A stretch of DNA of 38,748 bases from Colwelliaceae bacterium (GTDB lineage Bacteria > Pseudomonadota > Gammaproteobacteria > Enterobacterales > Alteromonadaceae), in contig JAGSHH010000007.1 of assembly GCA_023954655.1 (NCBI GenBank), positions 1 to 38,748 of the forward strand. The letters are read 5' to 3'. Made by a program: the position numbers and the translations under genes. Below the pieces are notes generated by a model. That model was not told where the DNA came from and did no database searches. It saw only the letters and a list, made by a program, of their open reading frames with translations. Each line of letters begins with the position of its first letter. Within the stretch, counting starts at the first letter, position 1. Below are positions 1 through 20,890 of this stretch, piece after piece.

Positions 1-247
1 AAAAGCTTCCATTTAATGTAGTAATCAGAGAGAGAGAGATAGATAGAGAGAAAGAGAGAGAGAGAGAGGAAGAGCTCTGAATACTGTTAACATGTACAAA
101 AATGTAAATGTAATTGTAGATTGAAAAGATCGAACATTTTGCCTCATTTGTGCCAAACACCAACCCACAAAAACAGAGAAAAAATGACGAACGCAAAAGC
201 TCCCGCTCGAACGTCCTCGCGAACGCCCAAACCGACGATGAAAACGA
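1..247. other. Probable foreign or chimeric segment at the window start, with AG/GATA microsatellite
   Basis: Positions 27-70 are an almost uninterrupted AG/GA dinucleotide tract broken by GATA units. From about 247 down to 1 no frame on the minus strand continues the ParE protein that is perfectly recognisable up to 248; I translated all three frames and none gives the expected next ParE residues. Dinucleotide microsatellites of this kind are common in eukaryotic genomes and rare in AT-rich gammaproteobacterial housekeeping genes. The likeliest explanation is a chimeric contig end or contaminating DNA; a real insertion or rearrangement is less likely. I see no credible gene here: the short open frames encode low-complexity Ser/Leu repeats. 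Confidence 0.6.
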
Positions 248-889
248 ATACCATTGATATTTATTATCTTCATTTTTATCATGAAACTTTATCGTTAAAC
301 CTGGGCACAATACTGCTTTGGCTTTAAGCAAATGAACTAAACGACGTGCTGAGAATTTTGATGAATCAAAATAGCTTTCATCGGGCCAAAATTTAACACG
401 AGTACCTGTATTTCTTCGCCCTACGGTTCCTGTTTCATGTAACTCTTCAACTTTTTCACCGTTCTCAAATGCCATTTCATGCATTTTCCCATCACGGCGA
501 ACAGCTACATCAACCCGTTTAGATAAAGCATTCACAACGGATATACCAACACCGTGCAAACCACCTGAGAATTGATAATTTTTATTAGAAAATTTACCAC
601 CCGCATGAAGCTTACAAAAAATTAATTCAACCCCAGACACACCCTCTTCTTTATGGATATCAATAGGCATACCTCGACCATCGTCAATCACTTCTAAAGA
701 CTGATCTTTATCTAATATTACTGTGATATTTTGGGCATGCCCAGCGAGGGCTTCATCAACAGAGTTGTCGATAACTTCTTGACCAAGGTGATTAGGACGA
801 GCAGTATCTGTATACATTCCGGGACGATGACGCACGGGATCCAAACCGCTAAGCACTTCAATGGATTCTGAATTATATTGTTCGCTCAT
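248..889 (-). CDS. parE: DNA topoisomerase IV subunit B (ParE), N-terminal fragment
   Basis: ParE is the ATPase subunit of topoisomerase IV, which decatenates daughter chromosomes with ParC. About 214 residues are recognisable, from the ATG at 889 (opening MSEQYNSESIEVLSGLDPVR) through the GHKL ATP-binding motifs: RPGMYTDT, the Asn/Asp-containing EVIDNSVDEALAGHA, DDGRGMPID and the ATP-lid motif GGLHGVGISVVNALS. Similarity to E. coli ParE is strong up to the stretch ending KYQWY near 248, then stops. The frame stays open to base 1 but encodes unrelated sequence. The transducer and TOPRIM regions are therefore absent. The gene lies 40 bases after yqiA, as in E. coli. The Shine-Dalgarno is weak (AGAG). 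Identification is secure; the cause of the truncation is not. Confidence 0.93.
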
Positions 890-8464: not shown

Positions 8465-11347
8465 TTATTCTAAAAACTGCTGAACAATTGTCGTTACTTC
8501 ATCAGCAAAAGGCAAAAATTGCTCACAATTCATCATTGCCGACTCATTTTGTAAACTTGTTTTATGGCCATAATCTCTTAATTGGCAATAATGATTAATA
8601 AGCACATCTTTTTGTTTATCGGTTAATATTCCAAATTCCGCAAATGTTATAAATAATCGATAGTTATCTGAGTATTTACATACGTCATGGTGTTTGGAAC
8701 TATAATTTAACACTAAATATTGCGTTAAAAATTCAATATCTACTAGCCCTCCTTTACCTTGTTTAATATCACAAAGTTCACTTGTTGATTTATCCAAATG
8801 GCCTCGCATTTTATTTCGCATATCAATCACTTCTTGACGTAACAATGCTTCATCTCGATTTTGAATTAAAATATCATGACGGATCTCATTATACTGCTCA
8901 ATAATTTGTTTTTGACCATATACAGCTCTAGCTCGAACTAATGCTTGATGCTCCCATGTCCATGCTTCTTCATTTTGATATTGTTTAAAGGTTTCAATAT
9001 TAACTACTAAAACACCAGAGTTTCCTGACGGGCGTAAACGCATATCCAACTCATACAAGATGCCATTATTCATGCGGGTATTAAAAATATGCATAATACG
9101 TTGCGCTAATTTGACATAAAACTGACTAGCCACAACAGGCTTTTTACCATTGGTTATATCGTCAATTTTACAGTTATGAATAAAAACTAAATCAAGATCT
9201 GAAGAATAACCAAGTTCACACCCTCCTGTTTTGCCGTAACCTATAACAGCAAAACCTTTATCGTCTGTCTCAGCCAAACTTGTTGGAATACCAAATCGCT
9301 CACTAACCTGTTGCCACGCCATATTAACAACTTCACCAACAATCGCTTCAGCTAAAGCAGTAAGATGATCGCTAACTTTTGTTACGGGTAACACACCAAC
9401 AATGTCACCTGCGGCAATACGTAATTGCTGTGCTTGTTTAAATTGTCGCAGCATATCCATTTGTGCTTCTAAATCTTCTTCAGGAATGCGTAATAAAACT
9501 TGCCTTAATTCAGCCGAATAACTTGACAATTCGGGGGGGTTATTGAGCAATTTAGGATCAATAAGTTCATCTAATAAAATAGGATACTTAGCAATGTGCT
9601 CAGCAAGCCAACTGCTTGCTTGGCAAAGCTTTACTAAATGTTTTAAAGCACCTTCGTTTTCATACAAAAGTTCTAAATAAGCCGTTCTCGTGACAATTTT
9701 TTCAAGCAACCAAGTTGTACGTTCTAACGTCACTTCATTACCATTGATATTTGCAATATGGCTAATTATTAATGGCACAAGTTTAGTTAATATTTGTCGG
9801 CCCCTATTACCAATAGAACGTTGTTTAAAATCACGTTTTAAGTCAATAAGTAACTGCCAAGTTTTTTCAGCGTTCCAGTCAGGTTGGTGAGCTAAAATCC
9901 ACTCAATAGATTCTTCATCTTGCCAATCACTTTCCCACAAAGTCATCCAGTGTTCGTCTTCCATCTTATGATTTGGACTTTCTTCACCTATAAGTACAAT
10001 AAACTCTTGATGTACACCACTCGTTAGTCGTTGTAAATAGTCTAAAAAATGCTGCCAAGTAGGAAACGTTTCATCACCCAATACATGTAAAATTCTTGCC
10101 TGGTCTAAAGGATTATCAGGAAGTGTTTGAGTTTGCTTGTCATCTATGGCTTGAATAATATTTTCTACACGTCTTAAAAAACGGTACGCTTTTTCCAAAA
10201 CTTGTTGACTATGTGCTGTTATTTCTTGATGTCTCACTAAAATAGGTAAGACTGTTAATAAGCTTCTTTGTTGTAAGTCTTTAATCCGTCCACCACGAAT
10301 AAGCTGAAATACTTGCACGATAAATTCAACTTCACGAATACCACCTGCACCAAGTTTTATATTACCTATTAATTTTTTACGGCGTACTTCTTGAGAAATC
10401 ATCATCTTCATGCGTCGTAAACTATCAATCACACTAAAATCAATGTATCGACGATAAACAAAAGGTCTCAATAAAGAAGAAAGCTGACCATGATATGCTC
10501 CTTGACCGATTAAACGTGCTTTAAGCATGGCATAGCGTTCCCAGTCGCGGCCTTGCTCTTGGTAATAATCCTCTATTGCGTTAAACGTTAAGACTAATGG
10601 ACCACTTTCACCAAAAGGACGTAATCGCATATCTACACGATAAACAAAGCCATCTTCTGTTTTTTGGTGCAAAGCCGTGATCAACTTTTGTCCTAAACGA
10701 GTAAAAAACTGTTGATTATCAAGAGTACGTCTTGTACCCGTGGTTTCTCCTGATTCGGGATAGACAAAAATCAAATCTATATCAGAAGAAAAGTTAAGTT
10801 CTTTTCCTCCTAATTTTCCCATACCATATACCAATAAAGGTTGTGTCTCGCCTTGACTGTTAGTAGGTATACCCCATTTTTTGTAGCAAAATTCACTTAA
10901 CCATGCCAATGCTTCTAAAATTAGCGCATCGGCTAATTCTGATAATCGTTTTAATGATTCATCTAAAGCAATATTTAGAACAAGATCGGCTATTGCGATA
11001 CTCACCATATGTTCTAATCTAAAAAGCCGAAGTTCACGATGTAATTCATCTTCAGAAATACAACTTTTTAAACGTTCTTTAAGTAAACTTTGGTAGTGAG
11101 GAGACTCATGTTGGTATACGTTTTCTGTTACAAATAAATTAATGACTATTTCAGGTGCTTGTAGTGCACTTCGTAAAACAAACTCACTTAGCGTAATGAT
11201 ATGTTTAAAATCAGCAAAAGCTTGACTTGTTGCGGTTTCCTTGAGGTGTTTCGAACACTCAGGGTATTGATAGCAAAACTGCTGCCAGCTATTTTCTTGA
11301 TGTTTAGCTAAACAGGGGAGAAATGTTTTACGAAATAAAGTTGTCAC
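8465..11347 (-). CDS. glnE: Bifunctional glutamine synthetase adenylyltransferase / deadenylase GlnE
   Basis: A 960-residue enzyme (E. coli 946) that adenylylates glutamine synthetase to inactivate it under nitrogen excess and removes the AMP under limitation, controlled by PII and glutamine. Two nucleotidyltransferase domains are visible: the N-terminal deadenylase with GMGKLGGKELNFSSDIDL (about 175-195), and the C-terminal adenylylase with GYGKTGGCELGYSSDLDL (about 700-720), each keeping the SSDxDL metal-binding aspartates. Conserved RLRPFGESGPL and RLRPSGNSGVLV blocks follow each. The GTG start at 11347 has a good GAGGT about 5 bases upstream and gives the expected N-terminus. It is encoded alone, convergent with the TcpQ-like gene. 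Confidence 0.97.
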   Translation of the reverse strand: MTTLFRKTFLPCLAKHQENSWQQFCYQYPECSKHLKETATSQAFADFKHIITLSEFVLRSALQAPEIVINLFVTENVYQHESPHYQSLLKERLKSCISEDELHRELRLFRLEHMVSIAIADLVLNIALDESLKRLSELADALILEALAWLSEFCYKKWGIPTNSQGETQPLLVYGMGKLGGKELNFSSDIDLIFVYPESGETTGTRRTLDNQQFFTRLGQKLITALHQKTEDGFVYRVDMRLRPFGESGPLVLTFNAIEDYYQEQGRDWERYAMLKARLIGQGAYHGQLSSLLRPFVYRRYIDFSVIDSLRRMKMMISQEVRRKKLIGNIKLGAGGIREVEFIVQVFQLIRGGRIKDLQQRSLLTVLPILVRHQEITAHSQQVLEKAYRFLRRVENIIQAIDDKQTQTLPDNPLDQARILHVLGDETFPTWQHFLDYLQRLTSGVHQEFIVLIGEESPNHKMEDEHWMTLWESDWQDEESIEWILAHQPDWNAEKTWQLLIDLKRDFKQRSIGNRGRQILTKLVPLIISHIANINGNEVTLERTTWLLEKIVTRTAYLELLYENEGALKHLVKLCQASSWLAEHIAKYPILLDELIDPKLLNNPPELSSYSAELRQVLLRIPEEDLEAQMDMLRQFKQAQQLRIAAGDIVGVLPVTKVSDHLTALAEAIVGEVVNMAWQQVSERFGIPTSLAETDDKGFAVIGYGKTGGCELGYSSDLDLVFIHNCKIDDITNGKKPVVASQFYVKLAQRIMHIFNTRMNNGILYELDMRLRPSGNSGVLVVNIETFKQYQNEEAWTWEHQALVRARAVYGQKQIIEQYNEIRHDILIQNRDEALLRQEVIDMRNKMRGHLDKSTSELCDIKQGKGGLVDIEFLTQYLVLNYSSKHHDVCKYSDNYRLFITFAEFGILTDKQKDVLINHYCQLRDYGHKTSLQNESAMMNCEQFLPFADEVTTIVQQFLE

Positions 11348-11564
11348 TAAAACCTCAACTGGTAAATTTTTTACTAAGATAAGTAGTTAAAAGATAATAC
11401 TTAACGTTACAAAGAATTAACAAATCATTAGACATATTATGTCAACGATGTTATTAGTATATAAATCGATAAGAAATTGAATTCTTTAACCGTTTTTAGC
11501 TTAGCTATTTGGTGCTTTAAATTCAATTACCTTTAACTTTCACCATAGCATTTTTGAGGGAACT
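11348..11564 (+). promoter_or_regulatory. Promoter region of accessory unit 1 with a GACATATTATGTC operator
   Basis: The perfect palindrome GACATA-T-TATGTC sits at 11431-11443. The same 13-mer recurs at 15276 and, inverted, at 15311, upstream of the second half of the same gene cluster. Here it overlaps a -35-like TAGACA at 11429-11434; a -10-like TATTAG follows at 11452-11457 (spacer 17), with the AT-rich TATATAAA just after. An operator on the -35 box suggests repression, though activation is not excluded. The remainder of the gap holds nothing else I can recognise. Confidence 0.7.
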
Positions 11565-12542
11565 ATGGCAGAAATGCAATATTATAAATACTTGTTATTT
11601 AGTCTTTTATTGATCTTAGTCGGATGTTCTGATCCTGTAAAAGAACAAATTACTCAGCAAATGCCAATTACCGAACAAAGAATCATACAACTTGGTAAGG
11701 CGCTTGACGAAGGTCAAGTAAGAAACGCTAATCTAATTAAACAGTATGCGAGTAAATTAAGAACAGCTAAACCAGAGTTATCAACTTTGGTTAATGAATT
11801 TGCTAAAGATGCAACTCAGCAAAGTCCAATGTATTTAGCATTAGTTGATCGTTTAAACACAGTTCAAACTCAGCCCAACATGTTTGCCAATAACCGAGCT
11901 GTTTTTGACGAATTATTAAATATTTATCAAGCTGCAGACCCTGTATTGTTTTCTGACGCTTTGAGTGATCCTTTAAATGTTTTAGCGGATATGTCTGATG
12001 GACTTTTACCTCGCGTAAATTCTTTATCAAAAGCTCAAAGCCTTCAAGCTAACAATGCACAAGACTTTGGTGTTGGAGAACAACTCATTGGTAACCCTAG
12101 TTATGGACAATGGACCACAGGAAGTAATGGCATGTCATTTTGGGCATGGTATGGCATGTATTCAATGATGGGGGACATTTTTGGTTCACGTAGAGTTAAT
12201 TATGGTAGTTGGGGTAGCAGAAGAAACTATAGTTATTATAATGACTATGGAAGAACGCGTTATAGCTCGCCTTCTCAATTACGTAAGCAGACACAATTAG
12301 ATACTCGTACAAAAAAATCATTTCAAAGTCGTGGGCAAAAATACACCAGCGCCTACAGTAAAAGTAGGACCGGCTCCTCGAGTTTATCAGGACAAAGCAA
12401 AACAGCACAAACCAGTGCAAAACGTTTTAGTAGTAACACTGCGAAAAAAAGCTCTTATGCAAAAAAATCTTCAACATCCAAAAATGCTAGTTTTCGCAAC
12501 AGTTCAAGTACCACTTCTCGTAGCTTTAGACGTGGCAAATAA
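11565..12542 (+). CDS. Predicted lipoprotein with Arg/Ser/Lys-rich C-terminal tail (unrecognised)
   Basis: A 325-residue protein I cannot assign to a named family. It starts at an ATG with GAGGG four bases upstream. A lipoprotein signal (hydrophobic stretch 9-20, lipobox LVGC with Cys21) predicts a periplasm-facing lipid anchor. Residues about 22-165 look helical. A short aromatic/Gly/Met block at about 175-205 (FWAWYGMYSMMGDIFG) is followed by a strikingly basic low-complexity tail (about 206-325) dominated by Ser, Arg, Lys, Tyr and Thr, ending FRRGK. It is the first gene of unit 1, 23 bases ahead of the DUF350 gene, so it probably works with it. By position it could be the counterpart of YjfM in the E. 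coli yjf operon, but I do not see convincing similarity. Confidence 0.75.
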   Translation: MAEMQYYKYLLFSLLLILVGCSDPVKEQITQQMPITEQRIIQLGKALDEGQVRNANLIKQYASKLRTAKPELSTLVNEFAKDATQQSPMYLALVDRLNTVQTQPNMFANNRAVFDELLNIYQAADPVLFSDALSDPLNVLADMSDGLLPRVNSLSKAQSLQANNAQDFGVGEQLIGNPSYGQWTTGSNGMSFWAWYGMYSMMGDIFGSRRVNYGSWGSRRNYSYYNDYGRTRYSSPSQLRKQTQLDTRTKKSFQSRGQKYTSAYSKSRTGSSSLSGQSKTAQTSAKRFSSNTAKKSSYAKKSSTSKNASFRNSSSTTSRSFRRGK

Positions 12543-12565
12543 CGAGAAGAGATCAAGGAAATAAT

Positions 12566-13468
12566 ATGAATACATTGTTTGAAATAACAGGCTTAAATCA
12601 AGACTTAGCTATTTACTTAGCTATTGATATTTCTATCGCTATTTTATTACTCGGAGCGATGAAATTTATCTCGGGATTGTCTGCTCAGGTAAATGCCACA
12701 GATGAATTATCAAAAGAAGATAACTTTGCTTTTGGTGTTAGTGTTGCGGGAAGTATTGCAGCTTTAGGTATTGTACTAACAGGTGCAATTACTGGAGAAA
12801 ATGCGCCAAGTTATCAAATGGAAATTATCGGTATGCTTTCGTACGGCATATTGGGTTTGATTTTAATTAAAGTTGGCCGCGTAATACATGATCGTTTAGC
12901 ACTTAATCAAATAGATAAAACTGCACAAATTAAAAATCGTAATATAACAGTTGGCTTAGTTGATGCTGCAGGCGTTATTGCTACAGCCATCGTTATTCGT
13001 GCTGTACTATTATGGGTAAATGGCATAAACGTAAATACCTTTATTGCGATTATCGCAGGTTTTATCGTTTCTCAAGCAATGTTAGTTTTAGTGACTCGAA
13101 TTAAAGAGCGCCAATATGCAAATAATAATCAAAATGATTCTCTTCAAGAAGCTTTTGCTAATGGCCAAGTAGCGCTAGCTATTCGTTATGCAGGACAAGT
13201 GATAAGTACGGCATTAGCAGTAACAGCAGCTAGTCATTTCCTTGAATACAATCCTGAAACGCTTGTTTCTACATTAACAGCTTGGTTAGTTTTCAGTGTT
13301 GTAATGACTGTATTAGTGGCTTTGCTTACCACTATCGCAAAAAGTATTGTTTTATGGGGTATCAATTTAGTTGAAGAAGTCGATCAACAGCACAATATAG
13401 GTGTCGCCAGTGTTGAAATGGCAATCAGTATTTCTATTGCATTGATTCTAACAGCGTTGATGGCATAA
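12566..13468 (+). CDS. Tandem-DUF350 integral membrane protein (YjfL-like)
   Basis: A 300-residue polytopic protein with about eight hydrophobic helices (roughly 15-35, 56-77, 86-108, 126-149, 157-176, 201-222, 233-258, 277-298). It is an internal duplication of DUF350. The first copy has DNFAFGVSVAGSIAALGIVL and KNRNITVGLVDAAGVIATAI; the second has GQVALAIRYAGQVISTALAV and QHNIGVASVEMAISISIALI. E. coli YjfL, a single-unit DUF350 protein, is about 132 aa, so this is close to twice the length. Function is unknown; DUF350 proteins recur beside PspA-like and polyamine-related genes. AAGGA lies 8 bases before the ATG. It is co-transcribed with the lipoprotein and with the spermidine-synthase-like gene 28 bases downstream. 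Confidence 0.85.
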   Translation: MNTLFEITGLNQDLAIYLAIDISIAILLLGAMKFISGLSAQVNATDELSKEDNFAFGVSVAGSIAALGIVLTGAITGENAPSYQMEIIGMLSYGILGLILIKVGRVIHDRLALNQIDKTAQIKNRNITVGLVDAAGVIATAIVIRAVLLWVNGINVNTFIAIIAGFIVSQAMLVLVTRIKERQYANNNQNDSLQEAFANGQVALAIRYAGQVISTALAVTAASHFLEYNPETLVSTLTAWLVFSVVMTVLVALLTTIAKSIVLWGINLVEEVDQQHNIGVASVEMAISISIALILTALMA

Positions 13469-13496
13469 AGAGTAAGCAACAAATACGAATAATCTT

Positions 13497-15224
13497 GTGA
13501 ACCTACCGAATAAGCAGCATGTAACTCGTCAAAGCTTAATATGGCATGACATGCTGCTCATCATTACCATGGCCGTATTGGCTGGCTGTGGTCTTATTTA
13601 CGAATATTTACTTTCACATTACGCCGGTAGGGTATTAGGTGTGATGGAAAGTGCAATTTATACCATGATTGGTCTGATGATCGTCTCCATGGGTCTTGGT
13701 GCTTTTGCCGCAAGAAAAATCTCCTGTGCATTCAATGGCTTTGTTTGGCTTGAATTGATTATTGCCTTTTTAGGTACAACCGCAATTATAATCATTGCCA
13801 GTTTAATTGCCGTTACTCAGCTACTTCCACAAATAATTGCTGATACATTTTCGCTGCCTCCTGACGCCCTTCCACGTGGCGGTTTTTTTAAACAGCTAAG
13901 CTTTTTAGCATTTAATAGCCCTTATTTTTTTGGATTGTTACTCGGTTTTTTTATTGGTATGGAAATCCCCTTAATCGCAAAAATTAGAGAACAAATCCAT
14001 CAAAAACACCTCGCAAATAATTTAGGTACAATTTATGGCGCTGATTATATTGGTGCCGGTATTGGTGCTGCTATTTGGGTATTATTTCTTTTAACTATTG
14101 ATATTAGTAAAGCCAGTGCATTAACTGCAGCATTAAATTTAGTAGCAGGGTTTGCTTTTATATTTTTCTATTGGCATCAATTAAATTGGCGTAAGTTATT
14201 AGTTTGCCTTCATGCATTATTGCTCGTAGCAATAATAATCATTTATCAACAAGGAAATAGCTGGTTAAATCAATTAAGCAACTTACTTTATTTAGATAAA
14301 GTGGTTTACACAGATAAAACTCGTTATCAGCAACTCACTTTTACTGAACGTCAAATGGGACTTGAGCAACAACCAATTATTAACTTCTACCTAAATGGTC
14401 GATTACAATTTTCATCAAGCGATGAACATATATACCATAACTATCTTGTAGCTCCAGCTCTAGCAGGTTCGGCTCGACAACAAAATATTTTGATTATTGG
14501 TGGAGGTGACGGACTAGCATTAAGAGATGTTTTAGCTTGGGAGCCTGAAAAAGTAACTTTGATCGATTTAGATAAAGAATTAATTGAGCTATTTAATCAT
14601 CCTCAAGAAAAGCTTCCTGCTTCGTTAGCAAAAAAGATTAGTCGCCAAAATCAAAGTAGTCTTTCTCAAGGAAACGTAGAGTTAATATATAGTGATGCAT
14701 TTATTGCCATTGATGAATTATTAAAGCAGCATAAATCATTCGATAGCATTATTGTTGACCTTCCAGATCCAAGTCATCCTGATTTGAATAAGCTTTATTC
14801 AGTAAACTTTTATGCTCGATTAAAGCAACTTCTTTCAGGTGATGGTTTAATAGCAGTGCAATCAACAAGCCCGTATCATGCTAAAGATGCTTTTATTTCT
14901 ATAGGTAAAACAATGAAAGCTGCTGAATTTGCACATGTTCAACAATATCATGACAATGTGCCAAGCTTTGGTGAATGGGGTTGGACTATTGCTGCAAAGC
15001 ATGGAGAAAGCCCATTATCACGCTTATCAAACCTTGATGATTTCCAAGTAAAGCAACAGTGGTTGACTCTACCTATGTTGATTGGTGCTTTTGAATTTTC
15101 AGAAAACTTTTATCAAAACAAAAAAGAAATCCCAATTAATTACTTAGGAAATCATACTATTTATCAATTGCACCAAAAAGCTTGGCGTAACCAGCAAGGG
15201 CTTGAAAATTCTTATGCACAATAA
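13497..15224 (+). CDS. Membrane-embedded spermidine synthase-like (polyamine aminopropyltransferase) protein
   Basis: A 575-residue fusion. Residues about 15-255 form roughly seven transmembrane helices (for example 17-37, 48-70, 82-108, 141-160, 178-201). Residues about 280-550 are a spermidine-synthase-type Rossmann methyltransferase-fold domain with HNYLVAPAL, the nucleotide-binding GGGDG (335-339), an acidic strand end LIDLDKEL, and the catalytic-loop VDLPDPSHP (Asp421, Asp424). Classical SpeE is soluble and lacks the membrane part. The substrate is unknown; transfer of an aminopropyl group to a membrane-proximal acceptor is an inference. The chosen start is GTG at 13497 with no clear ribosome-binding site; an ATG about 17 codons later (MLLIITMAV) is an alternative. 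It is the last gene of unit 1. Confidence 0.85.
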   Translation: MNLPNKQHVTRQSLIWHDMLLIITMAVLAGCGLIYEYLLSHYAGRVLGVMESAIYTMIGLMIVSMGLGAFAARKISCAFNGFVWLELIIAFLGTTAIIIIASLIAVTQLLPQIIADTFSLPPDALPRGGFFKQLSFLAFNSPYFFGLLLGFFIGMEIPLIAKIREQIHQKHLANNLGTIYGADYIGAGIGAAIWVLFLLTIDISKASALTAALNLVAGFAFIFFYWHQLNWRKLLVCLHALLLVAIIIIYQQGNSWLNQLSNLLYLDKVVYTDKTRYQQLTFTERQMGLEQQPIINFYLNGRLQFSSSDEHIYHNYLVAPALAGSARQQNILIIGGGDGLALRDVLAWEPEKVTLIDLDKELIELFNHPQEKLPASLAKKISRQNQSSLSQGNVELIYSDAFIAIDELLKQHKSFDSIIVDLPDPSHPDLNKLYSVNFYARLKQLLSGDGLIAVQSTSPYHAKDAFISIGKTMKAAEFAHVQQYHDNVPSFGEWGWTIAAKHGESPLSRLSNLDDFQVKQQWLTLPMLIGAFEFSENFYQNKKEIPINYLGNHTIYQLHQKAWRNQQGLENSYAQ

Positions 15225-15270
15225 TATTTTGAGTAGGAAATAAAAATTAAATAAAGAAAATTAAAATCAG

Positions 15271-15324
15271 TACTTGACATATTATGTCACAGTGCTAAAT
15301 TTACCACATCGACATAATATGTCG
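15271..15324 (+). promoter_or_regulatory. Promoter of accessory unit 2 flanked by two copies of the 13-bp palindrome
   Basis: Palindrome copy A, GACATATTATGTC, is at 15276-15288, extending to a 7+1+7 match TGACATATTATGTCA. Copy B is its exact reverse complement, GACATAATATGTC, at 15311-15323, also 7+1+7 with flanking C/G. Copy A overlaps a perfect -35 TTGACA (15274-15279); a -10-like TAAATT lies at 15296-15301 (spacer 16), and copy B is just downstream of it near the likely start site. Centres are 35 bases apart. Bracketing of a promoter by two operators is the layout of a repressed or autoregulated operon. Confidence 0.75.
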
Positions 15325-15376
15325 TCGGGTTATTTAAGAGAAACCAATGACCCTTTGATAAAACATGAGGAACCAC

Positions 15377-15790
15377 ATGAATATTCACAAAATTGCGAAC
15401 CACTTGAATACATTAGCAGATAATTCTGAAACCGGGATGGTTTTCGATTGCCAACCAATTTCAGGCGAAGTTGATGTATTACAAATTACCGTTATCGGAC
15501 GTGAAGAATTACCTGTTTTTGTTTCAGTGACAGATGATCAGATTCTTTGTATCACTTATCTATGGGGATCAGAGGAAGTTAAACCTGAGTGTTTAGCTGA
15601 AATGCATGAGAGTATGTTAGAAATGAATATTCCAATGCCACTCTCTTCATTTTCAAAAATTGGCGATAAATATGTGATTTTTGGCGCATTAGCTATTAGC
15701 TCAACTTTTGATGACATTGAACATGAACTCGCTGTTTTGAACAATAACGCCATCGAAGTTATCGATGATATGAGTGATTATTTAGTTTAA
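15377..15790 (+). CDS. yjfI: DUF2170 family protein (YjfI-like)
   Basis: A 137-residue soluble acidic protein related to E. coli YjfI (DUF2170, about 133 aa), function unknown. I chose the ATG at 15377 because GAGGAA lies 6 bases upstream; an in-frame ATG at 15365 would place that ribosome-binding site inside the gene. Visible features are the N-terminal NIHKIANHLN, a central ITYLWGSEEVKPE, and a C-terminal segment rich in Asp/Glu/Ile. It is the first gene of unit 2, 26 bases before the PspA-like gene, the same order as yjfI-yjfJ-yjfK in E. coli. Confidence 0.8.
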   Translation: MNIHKIANHLNTLADNSETGMVFDCQPISGEVDVLQITVIGREELPVFVSVTDDQILCITYLWGSEEVKPECLAEMHESMLEMNIPMPLSSFSKIGDKYVIFGALAISSTFDDIEHELAVLNNNAIEVIDDMSDYLV

Positions 15791-15816
15791 GCAACCACCC
15801 TGTTAGGAGTATTATT

Positions 15817-16506
15817 ATGAGCATTTTTAAAAAAATTATGACCGCTATCCGTGGTGGTGCAACTGAAGTAGGTGAATCAATTGTTGATTCTAATGCCACC
15901 CGAATTTTTGAACAAGAAATTCGTGATGCAGAAAATCATCTAACCAAAGCAAAACGTGACTTAACTGGTGTAATGGCACAACAAATGGCTTCAAGCCGGG
16001 AAGTTGATCGCATTAAGCGCGAAGTGGTTGAGCACGAAGGTTATGCAGTACAAGCGCTAGAAAAAGGCGATGAAACATTAGCACTTGCCGTTGCTGAAAA
16101 AATATCAAATTTAGAAAGTGAATTATCTTCACAGCAACAATCTCTTGATAGTTTTGAAGGTAGTGCAAATCGATTAAAAGAATTAGTGAAAAAGAGTGAA
16201 CGACAAGTACAAGAACATAAACGTCAACTTTCAATGGTAAAAACCACAGAAAGTGTACAAAAAGCGACATCAGCAATTACTGATAATTTTTCATCAAGTA
16301 ACTCGAAACTACTTAGTGCTAAAGATTCATTAGAGCGCATCAAAGCTAAACAACAAAAATTTGATGATCAAATGAAAGCAGCTGAAATGTTAGAATCGGA
16401 AAACTCTGATAATTCACTTGAAGCACAGCTTAAAGAAGCGGGAATTGGCGCAACAGACAATAATGCAAATTCAGTATTAGAACGTCTTAAAGCCAAACAA
16501 AAGTAA
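15817..16506 (+). CDS. yjfJ: PspA/IM30 family protein (YjfJ-like)
   Basis: A 229-residue PspA/IM30 (ESCRT-III-like) protein expected to bind stressed inner membrane. It opens with the amphipathic helix MSIFKKIMTAIRGGATEVGE, followed by a coiled coil over about 30-195 with no transmembrane segment. The C-terminal part (EAQLKEAGIGATDNNANSVLERLKAK) matches the YjfJ branch rather than classical PspA: it lacks the regulatory context of pspF-pspBC, and none of those genes is nearby. An AGGAG is ideally placed before the ATG. It is central to unit 2; PspA proteins of this branch recur with DUF2170, DUF2491 and DUF350 partners. Confidence 0.93.
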   Translation: MSIFKKIMTAIRGGATEVGESIVDSNATRIFEQEIRDAENHLTKAKRDLTGVMAQQMASSREVDRIKREVVEHEGYAVQALEKGDETLALAVAEKISNLESELSSQQQSLDSFEGSANRLKELVKKSERQVQEHKRQLSMVKTTESVQKATSAITDNFSSSNSKLLSAKDSLERIKAKQQKFDDQMKAAEMLESENSDNSLEAQLKEAGIGATDNNANSVLERLKAKQK

Positions 16507-16525
16507 CGTTAATTCATTCATAGAT

Positions 16526-16563
16526 AACCGTTTATTAGCTTAATCGTTAATAGACGGTTTTAT
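16526..16563 (+). terminator. Hairpin between the PspA-like gene and yjfK-like gene (possible attenuator)
   Basis: A 12-bp stem (AACCGTTTATTA at 16526-16537 with 16548-16559, one G-U pair, 10-base loop) is followed by only a short T stretch. It ends about 10 bases before the next start codon. It may protect the 3' end of the PspA mRNA or partly terminate, lowering expression of the downstream genes. Confidence 0.45.
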
Positions 16564-16572
16564 GGGATAAAA

Positions 16573-17211
16573 ATGAGCTTTTTAAAACGAATATTTAAAA
16601 AAGAAGAAAATGCCCGTCAAGTTAATAAACCTAATGACTTGCTCAAAGGCGATATCATTGTTTTAACCGACAGTTTTGCTCTTCCTGAAACACTACGAAC
16701 TCAACAATTTCAAGTCACTGCAATCAACAGTTATGAGTATGAACATCGAGTTGATACTGAATGGGTATTAACAGGAAATGATGATACAGAGTTGTATTTA
16801 ACTTTAGATATAGATGATAAAACCTACCTTAAATTCTCATTAAAAATTCAACACCAAGATGTAGAAAGCTTATTTGATCTTGATGACTTCTCTACAATTT
16901 TTGATGAACCAGGAGAAGCCTTTCTAACTCGACAATCTGACAATGCTTTCACAAGCGGTTGGACAAGTGAGCAATATCAACAAACAATTTTCTCTAATGT
17001 TGGCTTTTTTCATCGCAAAGATCATCGTAGCGAAAACTTATCGGCTTATGAAGGTGAAGATTCTGGTGAACAATTTGAGCTTTATCAATTATTAGATAAA
17101 GAACAGTCTAAAGGTATTGAATTAGAAGTTTGGCACGATGGTGATACCGATATTTTTTTAACTTTATATCGACCAACAACAGACATTATTGATATGTTCC
17201 CGGGAAGTTAA
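16573..17211 (+). CDS. yjfK: DUF2491 family protein (YjfK-like)
   Basis: A 212-residue soluble protein related to E. coli YjfK (DUF2491, about 219 aa), function unknown. The basic N-terminus MSFLKRIFKKEE resembles a short membrane-contacting helix like that of the PspA partner upstream. The body is acidic and beta-rich, with EYEHRVDTEWVLTG, DLDDFSTIFDEPGE and a C-terminal ELEVWHDGDTDIFLTLYRP. It follows the PspA-like gene by 66 bases containing a hairpin and is separated by 2 bases from the next gene, so they are translationally linked. Assignment rests on sequence pattern plus the yjfI-J-K order. Confidence 0.82.
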   Translation: MSFLKRIFKKEENARQVNKPNDLLKGDIIVLTDSFALPETLRTQQFQVTAINSYEYEHRVDTEWVLTGNDDTELYLTLDIDDKTYLKFSLKIQHQDVESLFDLDDFSTIFDEPGEAFLTRQSDNAFTSGWTSEQYQQTIFSNVGFFHRKDHRSENLSAYEGEDSGEQFELYQLLDKEQSKGIELEVWHDGDTDIFLTLYRPTTDIIDMFPGS

Positions 17212-17213
17212 TT

Positions 17214-17537
17214 GTGAGTAGAAAATTACCTGAAAAATGGCAATCATCAATAAAGGCGGCCAAAGCAACACAAGTCGCTTTTGATATGGATGAAAAAATT
17301 CAATTAGAAATCCGAAAAGAAGCCGTTGAAGCGGGTTTAAGTCCTTCCGATAAAATAAGAGATATTCTTGGCTTACCTGTCAATAAAAGGCCGAAACGAC
17401 CAAGGTTGACGGTGAGTTTATCAACTGATGACTACATTGCTTTAGCTGAAAAATATCAATTAGATCCTGAACAACAACTAGAAATTAAAAAGAAATTGAT
17501 GGATGATTTGGTTCATCATGTATCAATGAAAGATTAA
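17214..17537 (+). CDS. Small protein with two ribbon-helix-helix-like units (candidate regulator)
   Basis: A 107-residue protein I do not recognise as a named family. Two similar units are visible. Residues about 19-54 read as a strand (TQVAFDM), a helix (EKIQLEIRKEAVEAG) and a second helix after LSPSDK, which is the ribbon-helix-helix pattern. Residues about 63-100 repeat it: RLTVSLS, then DDYIALAEKYQ, LDPEQQ and a final helix. A basic KRPKRPR joins them. The start is GTG at 17214, 2 bases after yjfK. If DNA-binding, it is the only such protein in the cluster and a natural candidate to bind the 13-bp palindromes. This is inference; a protein-protein adaptor role is also possible. Confidence 0.7.
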   Translation: MSRKLPEKWQSSIKAAKATQVAFDMDEKIQLEIRKEAVEAGLSPSDKIRDILGLPVNKRPKRPRLTVSLSTDDYIALAEKYQLDPEQQLEIKKKLMDDLVHHVSMKD

Positions 17538-17547
17538 GTGCTTCCCT

Positions 17548-18009
17548 ATGAATAAATCATTAAAAGCTTACTCAATTGACGAGTTTGGTGTTAAAAATTA
17601 TAATTCCTTTTATTTGTTACTCATTACAATAATTGTACTTTATGCAGTAATTGCCCTACTTTCTTTTCCTTTATTTCACTTTGAAATGACAGCAGAACAC
17701 AGCAATATAAAATCTTACCGTGATGCATTTTGGACCTTACAAATGAGTGCAAGCACTATCGGCTTTGGTGATTTCTACCCTGTCACGGCACAAGGACGAA
17801 TTATTGTAGCAGCAATGTTTTATATTGGCGTAGGAATGGTTGGTTTTGTTGGCGCACAATTTGTTGATAAATTTGTCGGTTTTTCAGATACTAATGTCAA
17901 GAATAGAGAATTAAGAAAACAAAATAAAGAATTGCTTGAGCACAATAAACAGTTAGAGAAAAAGATTGATTTATTAGTAGAAAAAGTTGAGAAATTCATT
18001 AACAAATAA
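17548..18009 (+). CDS. Two-TM potassium-channel-like protein with C-terminal coiled coil
   Basis: A 153-residue inner-membrane protein of the Ion_trans_2 type. TM1 is at about 21-45, the pore helix at 57-69 (AFWTLQMSAS), the selectivity filter TIGFGD at 70-75 followed by FYPVT, and TM2 at 84-108. A filter of TIGFGD is a common variant of TVGYGD, so K+ selectivity is likely but untested. There is no RCK domain; instead residues about 117-150 form a short charged coiled coil suited to tetramer assembly or partner binding. It is the last gene of unit 2, 10 bases after the RHH-like gene, suggesting ion flux is part of this membrane-stress response. Confidence 0.88.
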   Translation: MNKSLKAYSIDEFGVKNYNSFYLLLITIIVLYAVIALLSFPLFHFEMTAEHSNIKSYRDAFWTLQMSASTIGFGDFYPVTAQGRIIVAAMFYIGVGMVGFVGAQFVDKFVGFSDTNVKNRELRKQNKELLEHNKQLEKKIDLLVEKVEKFINK

Positions 18010-18108
18010 AAATCCTTTATTGTATTACATATCTTAACGTATAAAATGTATGCCATACTGTTGAATATTAAGCCAAATTTAATGACTAAAAAGAATAAAG
18101 GAAAATTT

Positions 18109-18348
18109 ATGTTAATTAAAAGCCTGTTTACTATAACTCTTGTCGCATTAGCTACTGGCTGTGCAAGCTCTGATAGCTTAGACCAACAAGTCAGCACCCT
18201 TTCAAATAAGGTCGATAAACTAACAATGGAAATATCAAAGCTTAAAGCACAGCAAGATAAAAACACAACAGCTATTGATACATTGAAAGCCTCAAGTGAA
18301 AAAACGAATCAACGTATTAATAACGTAGCAAAAAGTTATAAAAAATAG
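18109..18348 (+). CDS. lpp: Braun-type murein lipoprotein (Lpp-like)
   Basis: A 79-residue lipoprotein (E. coli Lpp is 78). The ATG at 18109 has AAAGGAA 5 bases upstream; an upstream in-frame ATG at 18046 would destroy the signal peptide and is rejected. The lipobox is LATGC (Cys18; Ala at -3 is slightly unusual). The mature part is a single coiled coil with heptad hydrophobics (LDQQVSTLSNKVDKLTMEI and so on) ending NQRINNVAKSYKK, like the E. coli ending with a terminal Lys. Lpp is covalently joined through that Lys to peptidoglycan by L,D-transpeptidases; such an enzyme is encoded convergently next door. A TATAAA at 18040-18045 may be its -10. Confidence 0.88.
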   Translation: MLIKSLFTITLVALATGCASSDSLDQQVSTLSNKVDKLTMEISKLKAQQDKNTTAIDTLKASSEKTNQRINNVAKSYKK

Positions 18349-18476
18349 GCCGTGTATTGTTTTTACACTGCATAAATTCACTGCAATATATAAAAATATC
18401 GTTGAGATAATTGCTTTTGAAGACTAATCAAAGCTAATCCCAACTAAAAAGTAGATAACTTTTAAAGCAGTTATTA

Positions 18477-19373
18477 TCAGTGAACTATAGATTCAACTAG
18501 ACCATTTGGTTTTTGTAATCTTTGGTTGATAAAATGAAGAGTATTTATATTGTTACCAACAAATGCTTCAACTGCTGGAGTAATGAAATTTATATCTAGA
18601 TTTTCTGTTAAAGGCTTATGAATTTCAATGAGCTTTTCACCATTAGGTTCGTATGACATTTTGATCGGTTGGTCAACAATACGTACTTGTGTGCCAACTA
18701 TTACATTATTAAATAACCATTCAATATCATTAGCATACATACGAATACATCCAGAACTTGCTCGCATCCCTATGCCCATCCTTTTATTCGTACCATGAAT
18801 TAGATATTCACTGCTAGCCAATCTAAGTGCATATTTTCCGAAAGGATTATTCGGCCCTGCAGGAATAACTTTTGCTAACTCTTTCCCATGTTCTTTTTTA
18901 TACCTATCCCGCATTTCTTGTGGAGGTGTCCATGTTGGATTCTTCCGTTTATCTCCAATATAACTAATCACTCTTGGTGTAGATAAACCTTGTCGACCAA
19001 TTCCCACAGGAAAAACATAAACAAGTTGCTCGTTTGGAGGAAAGTAATAAAGCCTTAATTCAGCTAAGTTTACGACAATACCTTTTCGTTCAGCATACGG
19101 CAGTAGCATTTGTTTAGGGATTTCAAGTATTGTTCCTTTCTCAGGAAGAAAAGGATCAATAGTAGGGTTTGCCGAAATTAATGCCAAAAGACCAACATTA
19201 TGATATTCACTTAATTCCTGAAAAAAGTCTCCCTTCTCTACTTCATATTGAACTGGCTCTCCTAATAATTTAGAGTTTATTTTAGGTAAATTATAGATAC
19301 TCGCAAAACATGCTATCGGCAATATATAGACAAGAATAAAGTAAAGAATATAAATTTTCAGCTTGCTTATCAT
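18477..19373 (-). CDS. LysM / YkuD-type L,D-transpeptidase
   Basis: A 298-residue periplasmic enzyme similar to the E. coli ErfK/YbiS group that anchors Lpp to peptidoglycan or makes 3-3 crosslinks. A signal peptide runs to about 24 (ACFA). A LysM-like domain spans about 43-90 (VEKGDFFQELSEYHNVGLLALI, PTIDPFLPEKG). The YkuD catalytic domain (about 98-232) has HGTN (His193) and SSGCIRM (catalytic Cys209, Arg211). I place the start at the ATG at 19373, just 2 bases past the ygiF stop and 5 bases after AGAG; a longer start at 19421 would put extra residues ahead of the signal peptide. It is co-transcribed with ygiF and converges on lpp. Confidence 0.9.
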   Translation of the reverse strand: MISKLKIYILYFILVYILPIACFASIYNLPKINSKLLGEPVQYEVEKGDFFQELSEYHNVGLLALISANPTIDPFLPEKGTILEIPKQMLLPYAERKGIVVNLAELRLYYFPPNEQLVYVFPVGIGRQGLSTPRVISYIGDKRKNPTWTPPQEMRDRYKKEHGKELAKVIPAGPNNPFGKYALRLASSEYLIHGTNKRMGIGMRASSGCIRMYANDIEWLFNNVIVGTQVRIVDQPIKMSYEPNGEKLIEIHKPLTENLDINFITPAVEAFVGNNINTLHFINQRLQKPNGLVESIVH

Positions 19374-19375
19374 TT

Positions 19376-20890
19376 TTACTCTAACCAATAGGCTGGTAAT
19401 GATATCGCTGAATCTTTGCAATGAGCTAAAGCAAGTAATAAGTTTTCTACTTTACTTTCTTGCCAGTCAACAACTTTTTTATTGCTTGATTCATTAACTA
19501 ATTCAACTTTTTCAAGTTGCTGCTTAATTATCCATAAACTTTGCAGCTCTCTTAAGCCTATTTGCATATCTTGCCATGGCAATCGAAAATCAATGCGTTT
19601 ATTATCATCAAAAAATCCGCCAAACCAGTGTCCGGTTAATAAACTCCTATGTAATATTTTTCGTTGTGCTAACCATTGCTCGGCATCAGATGAGGAAAAT
19701 GAAGACATCGCGTGAGTTAATGATGCTAAACTTTGTGAAAGTTTCTTTTTGGCAAATGGCACTATGGCTTCTTCATTCGAGTCAATAAAGTAGTGTTCGT
19801 TTTTATTGCTAGTAATTAGCTTTAATAACGATAATTGTAATAAATTAAAACGTTCACTATGTAACAACTCAGCGATCATTTCTTTATCCGGAAAACGCCT
19901 TTTTTCTAATCTTAGTTGCTCAATTAATTGCTTACTGTAATCTAGTTTCTTTCGATAATTTCCTGTTTTTGTCATCAATTCTTGTAAGTAAATTGCATTA
20001 TCTACCCAAGCAAATAACTGAATAAAAAAGCTTAATTCATTTCTAATCTTTAAACTATTCTCAGTTAAATTATCTTCAAATAACCAAAAACCTTGTCTTA
20101 ACAAGGCAAGGACATCAACGAATGCATCAAGTTTTTTGAACGTTTGAAAGTGTAAATATTGCTCAATCGACATTTGCATTTGTTGTAAACAGGAACTTAT
20201 CCCTTCAACAAAACAACTTTTTATATTTTTTGAATCATTGTTTATTTCCAATAAAACATCAGAATCTTCAATTTCTTCTTTTTTAAAATATAATCGATAA
20301 CCACGAGCAGCTTTACTTTGCATGCCTGGACGTAATGATAAATCATGAGACAAAAGTTGAGCTAAAGAAAACAATGCATCCTTATCACCTGAAACTAATT
20401 CCAGTTCTAACTCACAAATATCAAAACTTCGTCCATCTGAGCTAATTTCACCTCTATCAAAAGCTAATTCTATTTCAGCTCCTTCAATAGATACTAACCA
20501 AATCTCTCGAGTAAAATCAGTATTAAAAAGTGGGATCAATTGTGTTTGCAATTTTTCAATATTCAAGTCATTTGACCAAACATCTTGAGGAAATAAAGTA
20601 AGTTGAGGAAAAGAAGTATCAAGATCAACATTATATTCAGGCCTTTGATGTAAGCCACCAATAACGACTCCAGCAGTCTTTATTGTTTGCTCAATATGCC
20701 CATCACAAATTCTGATCCTAAGTCCCATATCTAAATGGCGTAAAGCAAGTTCAGCCGTATCATAATAACAATTTGATAAATGTTTTATTTGATGTGTAAA
20801 AGCCAATTCTTTAGCTTTTAACAGGTTAAAAACTTTTATTGAAACATCTTCACTTAACGTTAAAAACTTAAGCTCGACTTCTGTACTCAT
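19376..20890 (-). CDS. ygiF: CYTH-CHAD domain inorganic triphosphatase (YgiF-like)
   Basis: A 504-residue cytoplasmic protein. Its N-terminal CYTH domain (1 to about 200) carries the hallmark EVELKF (ExExK) at residues 4-9 and acidic/basic pairs lining the triphosphate tunnel (ELAFDRGEI, ICELELELV, SKAARGYRLYF). The C-terminal CHAD domain (about 215-500) is helical with conserved Arg/Lys. The E. coli homologue hydrolyses tripolyphosphate; the CHAD domain may bind polyphosphate. In E. coli it lies between glnE and ygiM; here the glnE link is broken by the accessory cluster, while ygiM remains adjacent on the other strand. Confidence 0.92.
   Translation of the reverse strand: MSTEVELKFLTLSEDVSIKVFNLLKAKELAFTHQIKHLSNCYYDTAELALRHLDMGLRIRICDGHIEQTIKTAGVVIGGLHQRPEYNVDLDTSFPQLTLFPQDVWSNDLNIEKLQTQLIPLFNTDFTREIWLVSIEGAEIELAFDRGEISSDGRSFDICELELELVSGDKDALFSLAQLLSHDLSLRPGMQSKAARGYRLYFKKEEIEDSDVLLEINNDSKNIKSCFVEGISSCLQQMQMSIEQYLHFQTFKKLDAFVDVLALLRQGFWLFEDNLTENSLKIRNELSFFIQLFAWVDNAIYLQELMTKTGNYRKKLDYSKQLIEQLRLEKRRFPDKEMIAELLHSERFNLLQLSLLKLITSNKNEHYFIDSNEEAIVPFAKKKLSQSLASLTHAMSSFSSSDAEQWLAQRKILHRSLLTGHWFGGFFDDNKRIDFRLPWQDMQIGLRELQSLWIIKQQLEKVELVNESSNKKVVDWQESKVENLLLALAHCKDSAISLPAYWLE

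Follow-up and report, generated by a model that had tools for sequence, protein, structure and literature searches.

What controls the PspA-based membrane-protection module that lies at positions 11565–18009 of contig JAGSHH010000007.1 from a Colwelliaceae bacterium (GenBank assembly GCA_023954655.1; the 38,748 nucleotide stretch that was analysed is referred to as the window)? PspA systems protect bacterial membranes, and their control is little known outside a few models. The module consists of two operons, one encoding a lipoprotein-like protein, a double-DUF350 protein and a membrane protein with a spermidine-synthase-like domain, and a second that starts with the genes for a DUF2170 protein and PspA and includes a gene for a small protein with a predicted ribbon-helix-helix (RHH) fold. 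A 13 bp palindrome, here treated as a putative operator, was found to mark the promoters of both operons together with those of other genes for membrane maintenance, and to be present where the RHH gene is present. Based on these comparisons of sequences, we consider it probable that the RHH protein is an autorepressor and, via the palindrome, the regulator of a dispersed membrane-quality regulon.

Three perfect copies of the palindrome GACATAWTATGTC are found in the window, at 11431, 15276 and 15311. The first (GACATATTATGTC, 11431–11443) precedes the lipoprotein-DUF350-synthase operon, and the other two (operator 1, 15276–15288, and operator 2, 35 bp on at 15311–15323) precede the DUF2170 operon. 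Operator 1 overlaps the −35 of a forward-strand promoter at 15274–15301, TTGACA-16-TAAATT with a TG before the −10, which has 10/12 matches in a scan that gave fewer sites overall than in shuffles, and operator 2 lies beyond the −10. The window assembly (3.0 Mb in 220 contigs, 80.6 % complete) includes 8 perfect copies of GACATAWTATGTC, compared to none of the reversed pattern, and with 1 mismatch allowed there are 12 copies of the motif and 1 of the reversed pattern. When the window was considered alone with 2 mismatches allowed, the 4 matches found were reached in 4 of 100 shuffles, and the case for the operator thus rests on the perfect copies and on the relatives.

The relatives' loci examined, referred to as the named loci, are the best 80 of 313 by RHH similarity and nearly all are from Colwellia, Thalassotalea and their kin, with one from Shewanella and one from Parashewanella. 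The palindrome is kept at all 80 named loci, with three perfect copies at 76 and a perfect site near the start of the lipoprotein gene at 75. At all 80, the start-to-start spacing of the pair before the DUF2170 gene is 34–39 bp (36 bp in 52 and 35 bp in 22), operator 1 overlaps a TTGACA −35 and operator 2 lies beyond the −10. The consensus −10, TAAATT 16 bp after TTGACA, is exact at 42 of the 80 by best match. One operator over the −35 and a second past the −10 is a layout that suggests a repressor. The initial annotation of this DNA had claimed that the two operons share operators and hence form one system, a view it would have abandoned if the two halves never co-occurred in other genomes. 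The conservation of the three sites in relatives bears this out, as does the presence of both halves together at 77 of the 80 named loci (the synthase ORF is uncalled at the other three), though with the limit that the second half occurs alone in some stretches from families f11 and f12.

The distribution of the palindrome was examined in a sample of 247 genomes of the order, of which 77 include the RHH gene (RHH+) and 74 include a perfect palindrome. Outside family f11, the palindrome is present in 60 of 60 RHH+ genomes (at least two sites in 56, 283 sites in total), but among those lacking the RHH gene (RHH−) it was found in only 13 of 170, with 17 sites, four of which are in G111, where the contig stops just after pspA. 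For all 247 genomes, f11 included, Fisher's p for the co-distribution is 8e-30, a value not corrected for kinship. The reversed pattern, which is also a palindrome and has the same composition, gave 3 forward matches in these genomes compared to 301 for the operator. The association also holds within families. Sites were found in 8 of 8 RHH+ genomes but in 1 of 11 RHH− genomes of family f1, and in 17 of 17 RHH+ genomes of f6, where the single RHH− genome has none. In f7, the sole RHH+ genome (G122) has two sites and the other 17 sampled have none, and in f25 four RHH+ genomes have one site each and the other 13 have none.

Other genes of the module were considered as the source of this association. 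DUF2170 was found in 106 of the 247 genomes, namely all 77 RHH+ genomes and 29 RHH− genomes, and as just 3 of these 29 have a site, one of the three being G111 with its contig end beyond pspA, the operator goes with the RHH gene and not with DUF2170. The proposal that DUF2170 or PspA brings the operator was rejected because 26 of the 29 are without it. The genes of the first half were rejected as carriers of the operator, as four f12 genomes hold 8–10 sites and the single f12 stretch examined is without that half. In this f12 stretch and in five f11 stretches, the six in which the DUF2170, PspA, DUF4178 and RHH genes were all called, the lipoprotein-DUF350-synthase half does not accompany these four core genes, and hence the second half can stand alone.

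The RHH protein (17214–17537, forward strand) is 107 residues long, belongs to no significant Pfam or NCBIfam family and is proposed as the regulator; its fold was examined with an AlphaFold2 model and a VIA comparison. Among the matches listed, its closest named relative shares 89 % identity and is from a Thalassotalea metagenome-assembled genome, and on this basis the window is taken to be from a Colwellia/Thalassotalea-like bacterium. The model (pLDDT 75.5, pTM 0.65) includes two strand-helix-helix units in one chain, and the protein is thus predicted to be a single-chain double RHH. The best eight VIA rows, which are F relaxosome chains, single-chain Arc, AvtR and DndE, have Z values of 5.1–6.7, with a drop to 3.3 for the next, and as Z is <8 the match may reflect a common arrangement. 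The F relaxosome chains are presumably TraY. The F relaxosome protein, permuted single-chain Arc and AvtR likewise have two RHH units per chain, the likeness being one of predicted fold with no detectable sequence relation, and no solved relative was found by sequence (best E 0.72 in a PDB profile search). Residues A18, Q20, A22, R62 and R64 are invariant across 20 diverse RHH members, and their alternation is the pattern expected of strands that face the DNA. The two strands are not alike, and a single chain could thus recognize one of the asymmetric GACAT halves, so that a palindrome would take two chains.

The window genome includes five further perfect sites. One precedes nhaA, which diverges from an Lrp-type gene, and one precedes a pair of NfeD and band-7 genes; the others precede a pspA-pspC operon that is headed by a gene for a small protein, a gene for a YidC-like insertase and one for an unknown 160 aa protein. 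Away from the own-operon stretches, 110 distal loci were read in 35 of the 74 site-bearing genomes. These 35 include four RHH− genomes (G083, G239, G204 and G111) that contribute 6 of the 110 loci; in the case of G111 the own-operon stretch (L248) was excluded and the lipoprotein-promoter locus (L246) included. Using protein matches rather than called ORFs, a gene of the set that was sought comes first at 55 of the 110 loci. This gene is htpX in 19 genomes from 6 families, NfeD/band-7 in 14 genomes from 4 families, nhaA in 13 genomes from 3 families and yqiJ-yqiK in 6 genomes from 4 families, plus one locus each for YidC, for pspA and, in G111, for the lipoprotein gene of the module itself. 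Ten loci were added by hand, six in f1 where the site precedes a small protein and then pspA (in L077 pspA also has its own site), and four that precede other band-7 genes. Among the remaining loci are those of AIM24, SulP, peptidases of the M16 and M17 families and unknown proteins. At 88 of the 110 loci the site is clear of any ORF of ≥100 aa, even though 83 % of the sequence in the stretches belongs to such ORFs. In G122 and G017, yqiJ and yqiK directly follow the RHH gene on the same strand and, hence, a target that is distal in some families adjoins the module in others. At 16 of 17 htpX sites (L044, L046, L089, L105, L117 and others) the operator follows a CTTGA[AT] motif at a fixed distance of 19 bp, counted from the beginning of the motif. 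CTTGAA resembles a heat-shock −35, and the operator is positioned as if superimposed on a heat-shock promoter. The palindrome was also seen before polyphosphate kinase-ppx in two genomes of different families, at L130 (G083, RHH−) and at L115 (G152, RHH+).

The classical psp operon, which includes pspA, is regulated by PspF and sigma-54 under envelope stress. The RHH protein would likewise regulate a pspA gene, but PspF is a separate protein. PspF scored above its family cut-off in 22 of the 24 genomes that were tested, the window genome among them, and replacement of PspF by the RHH protein was therefore rejected; judged from these matches, the RHH circuit lies beside PspF. There are at least three pspA-type genes in the window genome (L282 in G000:C55, L010 in G000:C209 and that at 15817–16506 of the window), and they are of three types, one that adjoins the PspF match and is without the palindrome, one with an operator and pspC, and the window's own.

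In the explanation that we favour, a PspA/DUF2170 membrane-protection module would carry its own regulator. The RHH protein, with two RHH units per chain, would bind the palindrome, perhaps with one chain per GACAT half-site, and repress the operon that encodes it by occupying the −35 and the region of the start. The lipoprotein-DUF350-synthase operon would also be repressed and so, likewise, would the distal genes, namely htpX, nhaA, NfeD/band-7, yqiJ-yqiK, the second pspA-pspC operon and, in the window genome, the YidC-like insertase. Envelope stress would lift the repression, and PspA, the DUF350 protein, the lipoprotein and the channel would then be made together with a membrane protease and flotillin-like scaffolds. 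As to how stress is sensed, we can only guess that the RHH protein is bound or released by PspA together with the DUF2170 protein, which is chaperone-like; both are candidate stress sensors by analogy with bacA (see below) and with PspA-PspF. A broader version can be put forward only tentatively, namely that many gammaproteobacterial families have a membrane-quality regulon, separate from PspF, with a single-chain RHH repressor as its master switch, that this repressor ties the synthase/DUF350 and flotillin/YqiJ types of PspA-chaperone operon, which are published but separate, to the protease, antiporter and insertase by which the inner membrane is maintained, and that its release from DNA is gated by PspA and DUF2170 at the membrane. 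If the explanation is correct, DUF2170, DUF350, DUF4178 and the membrane synthase share one regulon with HtpX, band-7/NfeD and NhaA, which would give them a common context, and an RHH-run circuit of the phage shock protein (PSP) type would join the PspF, LiaRS and ClgR types.

The operator is altered in some groups. In f11, 17 of 17 RHH+ genomes carry GACATTWAATGTC ≤50 bp from the DUF2170 match and only two further copies lie elsewhere, so that 17 of its 19 places in f11 are at the own operon. The six f11 stretches that were read also have a further site over the −35, though an imperfect one. Outside f11, GACATTWAATGTC is found in 39 of 230 genomes, which is a background level, its reversed control being of similar size. 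In family f2, 9 of 11 genomes have just two sites and in G001, the f2 genome that was read, both are at the own operon. A class-level sample of 321 genomes yielded the RHH gene in 12, of which 10 were newly found and lie outside the order. DUF2170 is in view in eight of these ten, and in five of the eight perfect sites precede it. The other three, all judged by eye, have CCCATAWTATGTC (two genomes) or a site with one mismatch (one genome). In G485 and G442 the sites fall across the called start of DUF2170, which was probably placed too far upstream, and in the RHH+ genomes G478 and G528 neither DUF2170 nor a site was seen.

Several observations count against a regulon run by the RHH protein. 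The genomes are related and the counts are thus not independent. The change of operator in f11 is without an obvious matching change in the predicted DNA-facing residues of the RHH protein when these are aligned. For f25, htpX has the only perfect site, and at the own operon a site with one mismatch was found by eye. In G023 the synthase operon is without a site while a lone pspA elsewhere carries a tandem operator pair. About 45 of the 110 distal loci, after counting the ten added by hand, are not before the genes listed, and 22 of the 110 touch an ORF of ≥100 aa, with 6 lying inside one (30 bp margin). Several of the ORF-touching sites involve starts that seem to have been called too far upstream or ORFs that lie opposite htpX. 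The general −10 element after distal operators is not significant (109 of 1000 shuffles reach the signal from 69 promoters) and a full TTGACA is present at the operator in just 23 of these 69. Hence, the case for a repressor geometry comes from htpX and from the promoter of the module itself. As to the protein, in addition to the Z values, the predicted strands are just two residues long (DSSP) and Foldseek alone found no match at E ≤0.001. The ORF caller used was simple, and starts can be wrong and genes missed in GC-rich loci, e.g. the G078 and G485 stretches. The module of G023 was seen to be split over three places (L283, L284 and L148).

The alternative that survives best, though we regard it as rather doubtful, is the one in the initial annotation, in which PspA protection is coupled to polyamine chemistry and ion flux and the synthase makes spermidine at the membrane. 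An ion channel is indeed present, and the AdoMet-type motifs of the synthase are kept, with the GGGDG, DLD, DA and D-PDP residues found in ≥97 % of 85 aligned rows. A link to polyamines has also been put forward elsewhere, in the proposal that PspA-chaperone systems monitor polyamines or aminopropylation (PMC11237479). However, the AdoMet decarboxylase family PF02675, the only one sought, was found in 7 of the 14 genomes seen with the synthase, the window genome included, and was not found in G134, G147, G234, G005, G071, G016 and G152, all of which have the synthase. Because it was not found in those seven genomes, the substrate of the synthase there may not be decarboxylated AdoMet. In addition, the first half of the module, which includes the synthase, is missing in the f11 and f12 stretches, and the distal targets that recur encode a protease, scaffolds and an antiporter, with no polyamine gene recognized among the proteins annotated, which are part of the set. 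The polyamine part of the earlier model thus appears weak.

It is unlikely that the RHH protein instead activates these promoters or has both effects on them. The position of the site relative to the gene start varies and the −10 statistics at distal promoters are non-significant, as would suit such a role, but at all 80 named loci the arrangement with operator 1 on the −35 and operator 2 past the −10 would be expected to block RNA polymerase, and the htpX site lies at about the position where a −10 would be.

A repressor encoded by the RHH gene is also favoured over an improbable alternative, that the palindrome belongs to another regulator encoded elsewhere and the RHH protein, which might be antitoxin-like or structural, merely travels with the module. 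The 17 sites in 13 RHH− genomes could be read in this way, particularly as one of them, in G083, precedes ppk as in the RHH+ genome G152. This is difficult to reconcile with the presence of a site in every RHH+ genome outside f11 when so few DUF2170+ RHH− genomes have one, or with f7, where only the lone RHH+ genome has sites. The RHH protein, the one for which a fold was modelled, was also the sole one of the nine window proteins scanned to show signs of a DNA-binding fold. That this is an ordinary PSP operon with palindromes that only autoregulate, distal sites being chance or local noise, is very improbable, for although the operon class is published (PMC11237479) and the f11 variant keeps mostly to the own operon, as do both sites of the f2 genome that was read, the reversed control is almost without matches, the same orthologues recur across families and most distal loci avoid ORFs.

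The ORF check together with Pfam and NCBIfam scans confirmed eight ORFs at 11565–18009, all on the forward strand, in the place and order that had been claimed. The first (11565–12542) encodes a secreted, lipoprotein-like protein that has no Pfam family but has an LVGC lipobox-like motif by eye and has relatives at 80 of 80 loci. It is followed by the gene for the double-DUF350 (YjfL-type) membrane protein (12566–13468; PF03994 in two stretches, E 8.8e-34) and that for the membrane protein with a C-terminal spermidine-synthase-like domain (13497–15224), in which PF01564 (E 1.4e-29) corresponds to residues 310–504 of 575 and NF002956 (592 bits, cut-off 472) spans residues 6–566. The second operon encodes the DUF2170 protein of the YjfI/BacA family (15365–15790; PF09938, E 8.7e-38), which has a CesT/Tir-like chaperone fold (PMC10948618, PMC11237479), the YjfJ-like PspA/IM30 protein (15817–16506; PF04012, E 3.4e-40), a DUF4178-like protein (16573–17211), the RHH protein and an ion-channel protein (Ion_trans_2, 17548–18009; PF07885, E 1.1e-8) that is recognizable at 39 of 80 loci. 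A ninth gene for an Lpp-like small lipoprotein (18046–18348, forward strand; PF04728, E 3.9e-9), recognizable at 42 of 80 loci, often follows the operon. No known RNA element was found at the gathering threshold in 11000–18600.

One identity in the initial annotation was corrected, that of the gene after pspA, which had been called YjfK and counted as part of a yjfIJK core as in Escherichia coli. DUF2491 matches none of 16 members of this family (the window protein and 15 relatives, E ≤0.01) and the identification as YjfK was rejected. By contrast, DUF4178 (PF13785) is matched by 6 of the 16 at the same threshold (best E 1.5e-5) and, though the window member is outside these six (E 0.56, not significant), on these profile matches the gene is DUF4178-like and not YjfK. 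The E. coli yjf operon is not known to include an RHH gene, and it differs from the window module in that YjfK (DUF2491) is absent from the window and the window DUF350 is double. The resemblance lies in the neighbouring DUF2170 and PspA-like genes, the DUF350 protein and the membrane-stress setting, and E. coli yjfIJKL, which is upregulated in heat-adapted laboratory strains, has been proposed as a heat-tolerance operon (PMC12492005). A glutathionylspermidine-synthetase-like ATP-grasp partner was not found among the nine window proteins in the Pfam and NCBIfam scans. The further claim that the E. coli partners had been replaced, as a novelty, was overstated, as the operon class with DUF2170-PspA, 7TM-spermidine-synthase, 8TM DUF350, lipoprotein and DUF4178, and in some cases an RHH transcription factor as the final gene, was described by Ravi et al. 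in 2024 (PMC11237479); 7TM and 8TM (numbers of transmembrane, TM, segments) are the labels used for that class.

The window module has the adjacent PF09938 and PF04012 genes, TM-fused synthase, DUF350 in two stretches and RHH gene near the 3′ end of the group of Ravi et al., and its first protein is lipoprotein-like by eye, though without a Pfam model match, when set beside the Ctha_1186-type lipoprotein. Counterparts of all its components except the channel, those of the lipoprotein-like and DUF4178-like proteins being tentative, are described for the second major CesT/Tir-PspA group (AAN56744–AAN56747) of PMC11237479, which puts a potassium channel in a third group, whereas the window channel follows the RHH gene. 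Pseudomonas aeruginosa bacABCDEF also includes DUF2170 (BacA) and PspA (BacB), and accumulation of the remaining Bac proteins in a bacA mutant was read by the authors as negative control by BacA. It differs in that a sigma-54 site was proposed there and the authors find no spermidine synthase nearby (PMC10948618). The words operator and HtpX do not occur in the main text of PMC11237479. A literature search that covered open-access titles and the starts of abstracts, with subscription papers and supplements out of scope, found neither the operator, its link to the RHH gene nor the regulon, and the operator letters led, by title, to no paper on bacterial regulation. Hence, the module and a mention of the RHH gene are already published, and the operator, the RHH link and the regulon are new within the literature searched.

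At the start of the window (1–889), a GyrB/ParE-like ORF on the reverse strand continues into sequence that is unrelated to it and has a (GA)n run at ~30–70, close to where the contig ends, and this end of the contig appears to be chimeric or contaminated. A gene of ~950 aa, GlnE by its look, lies on one side of the module in several families and a CYTH-like gene of ~500 aa on the other (L132–L137, L142, L146 and L147), and genes of similar size flank the window module at 8465–11347 and 19376–20890.

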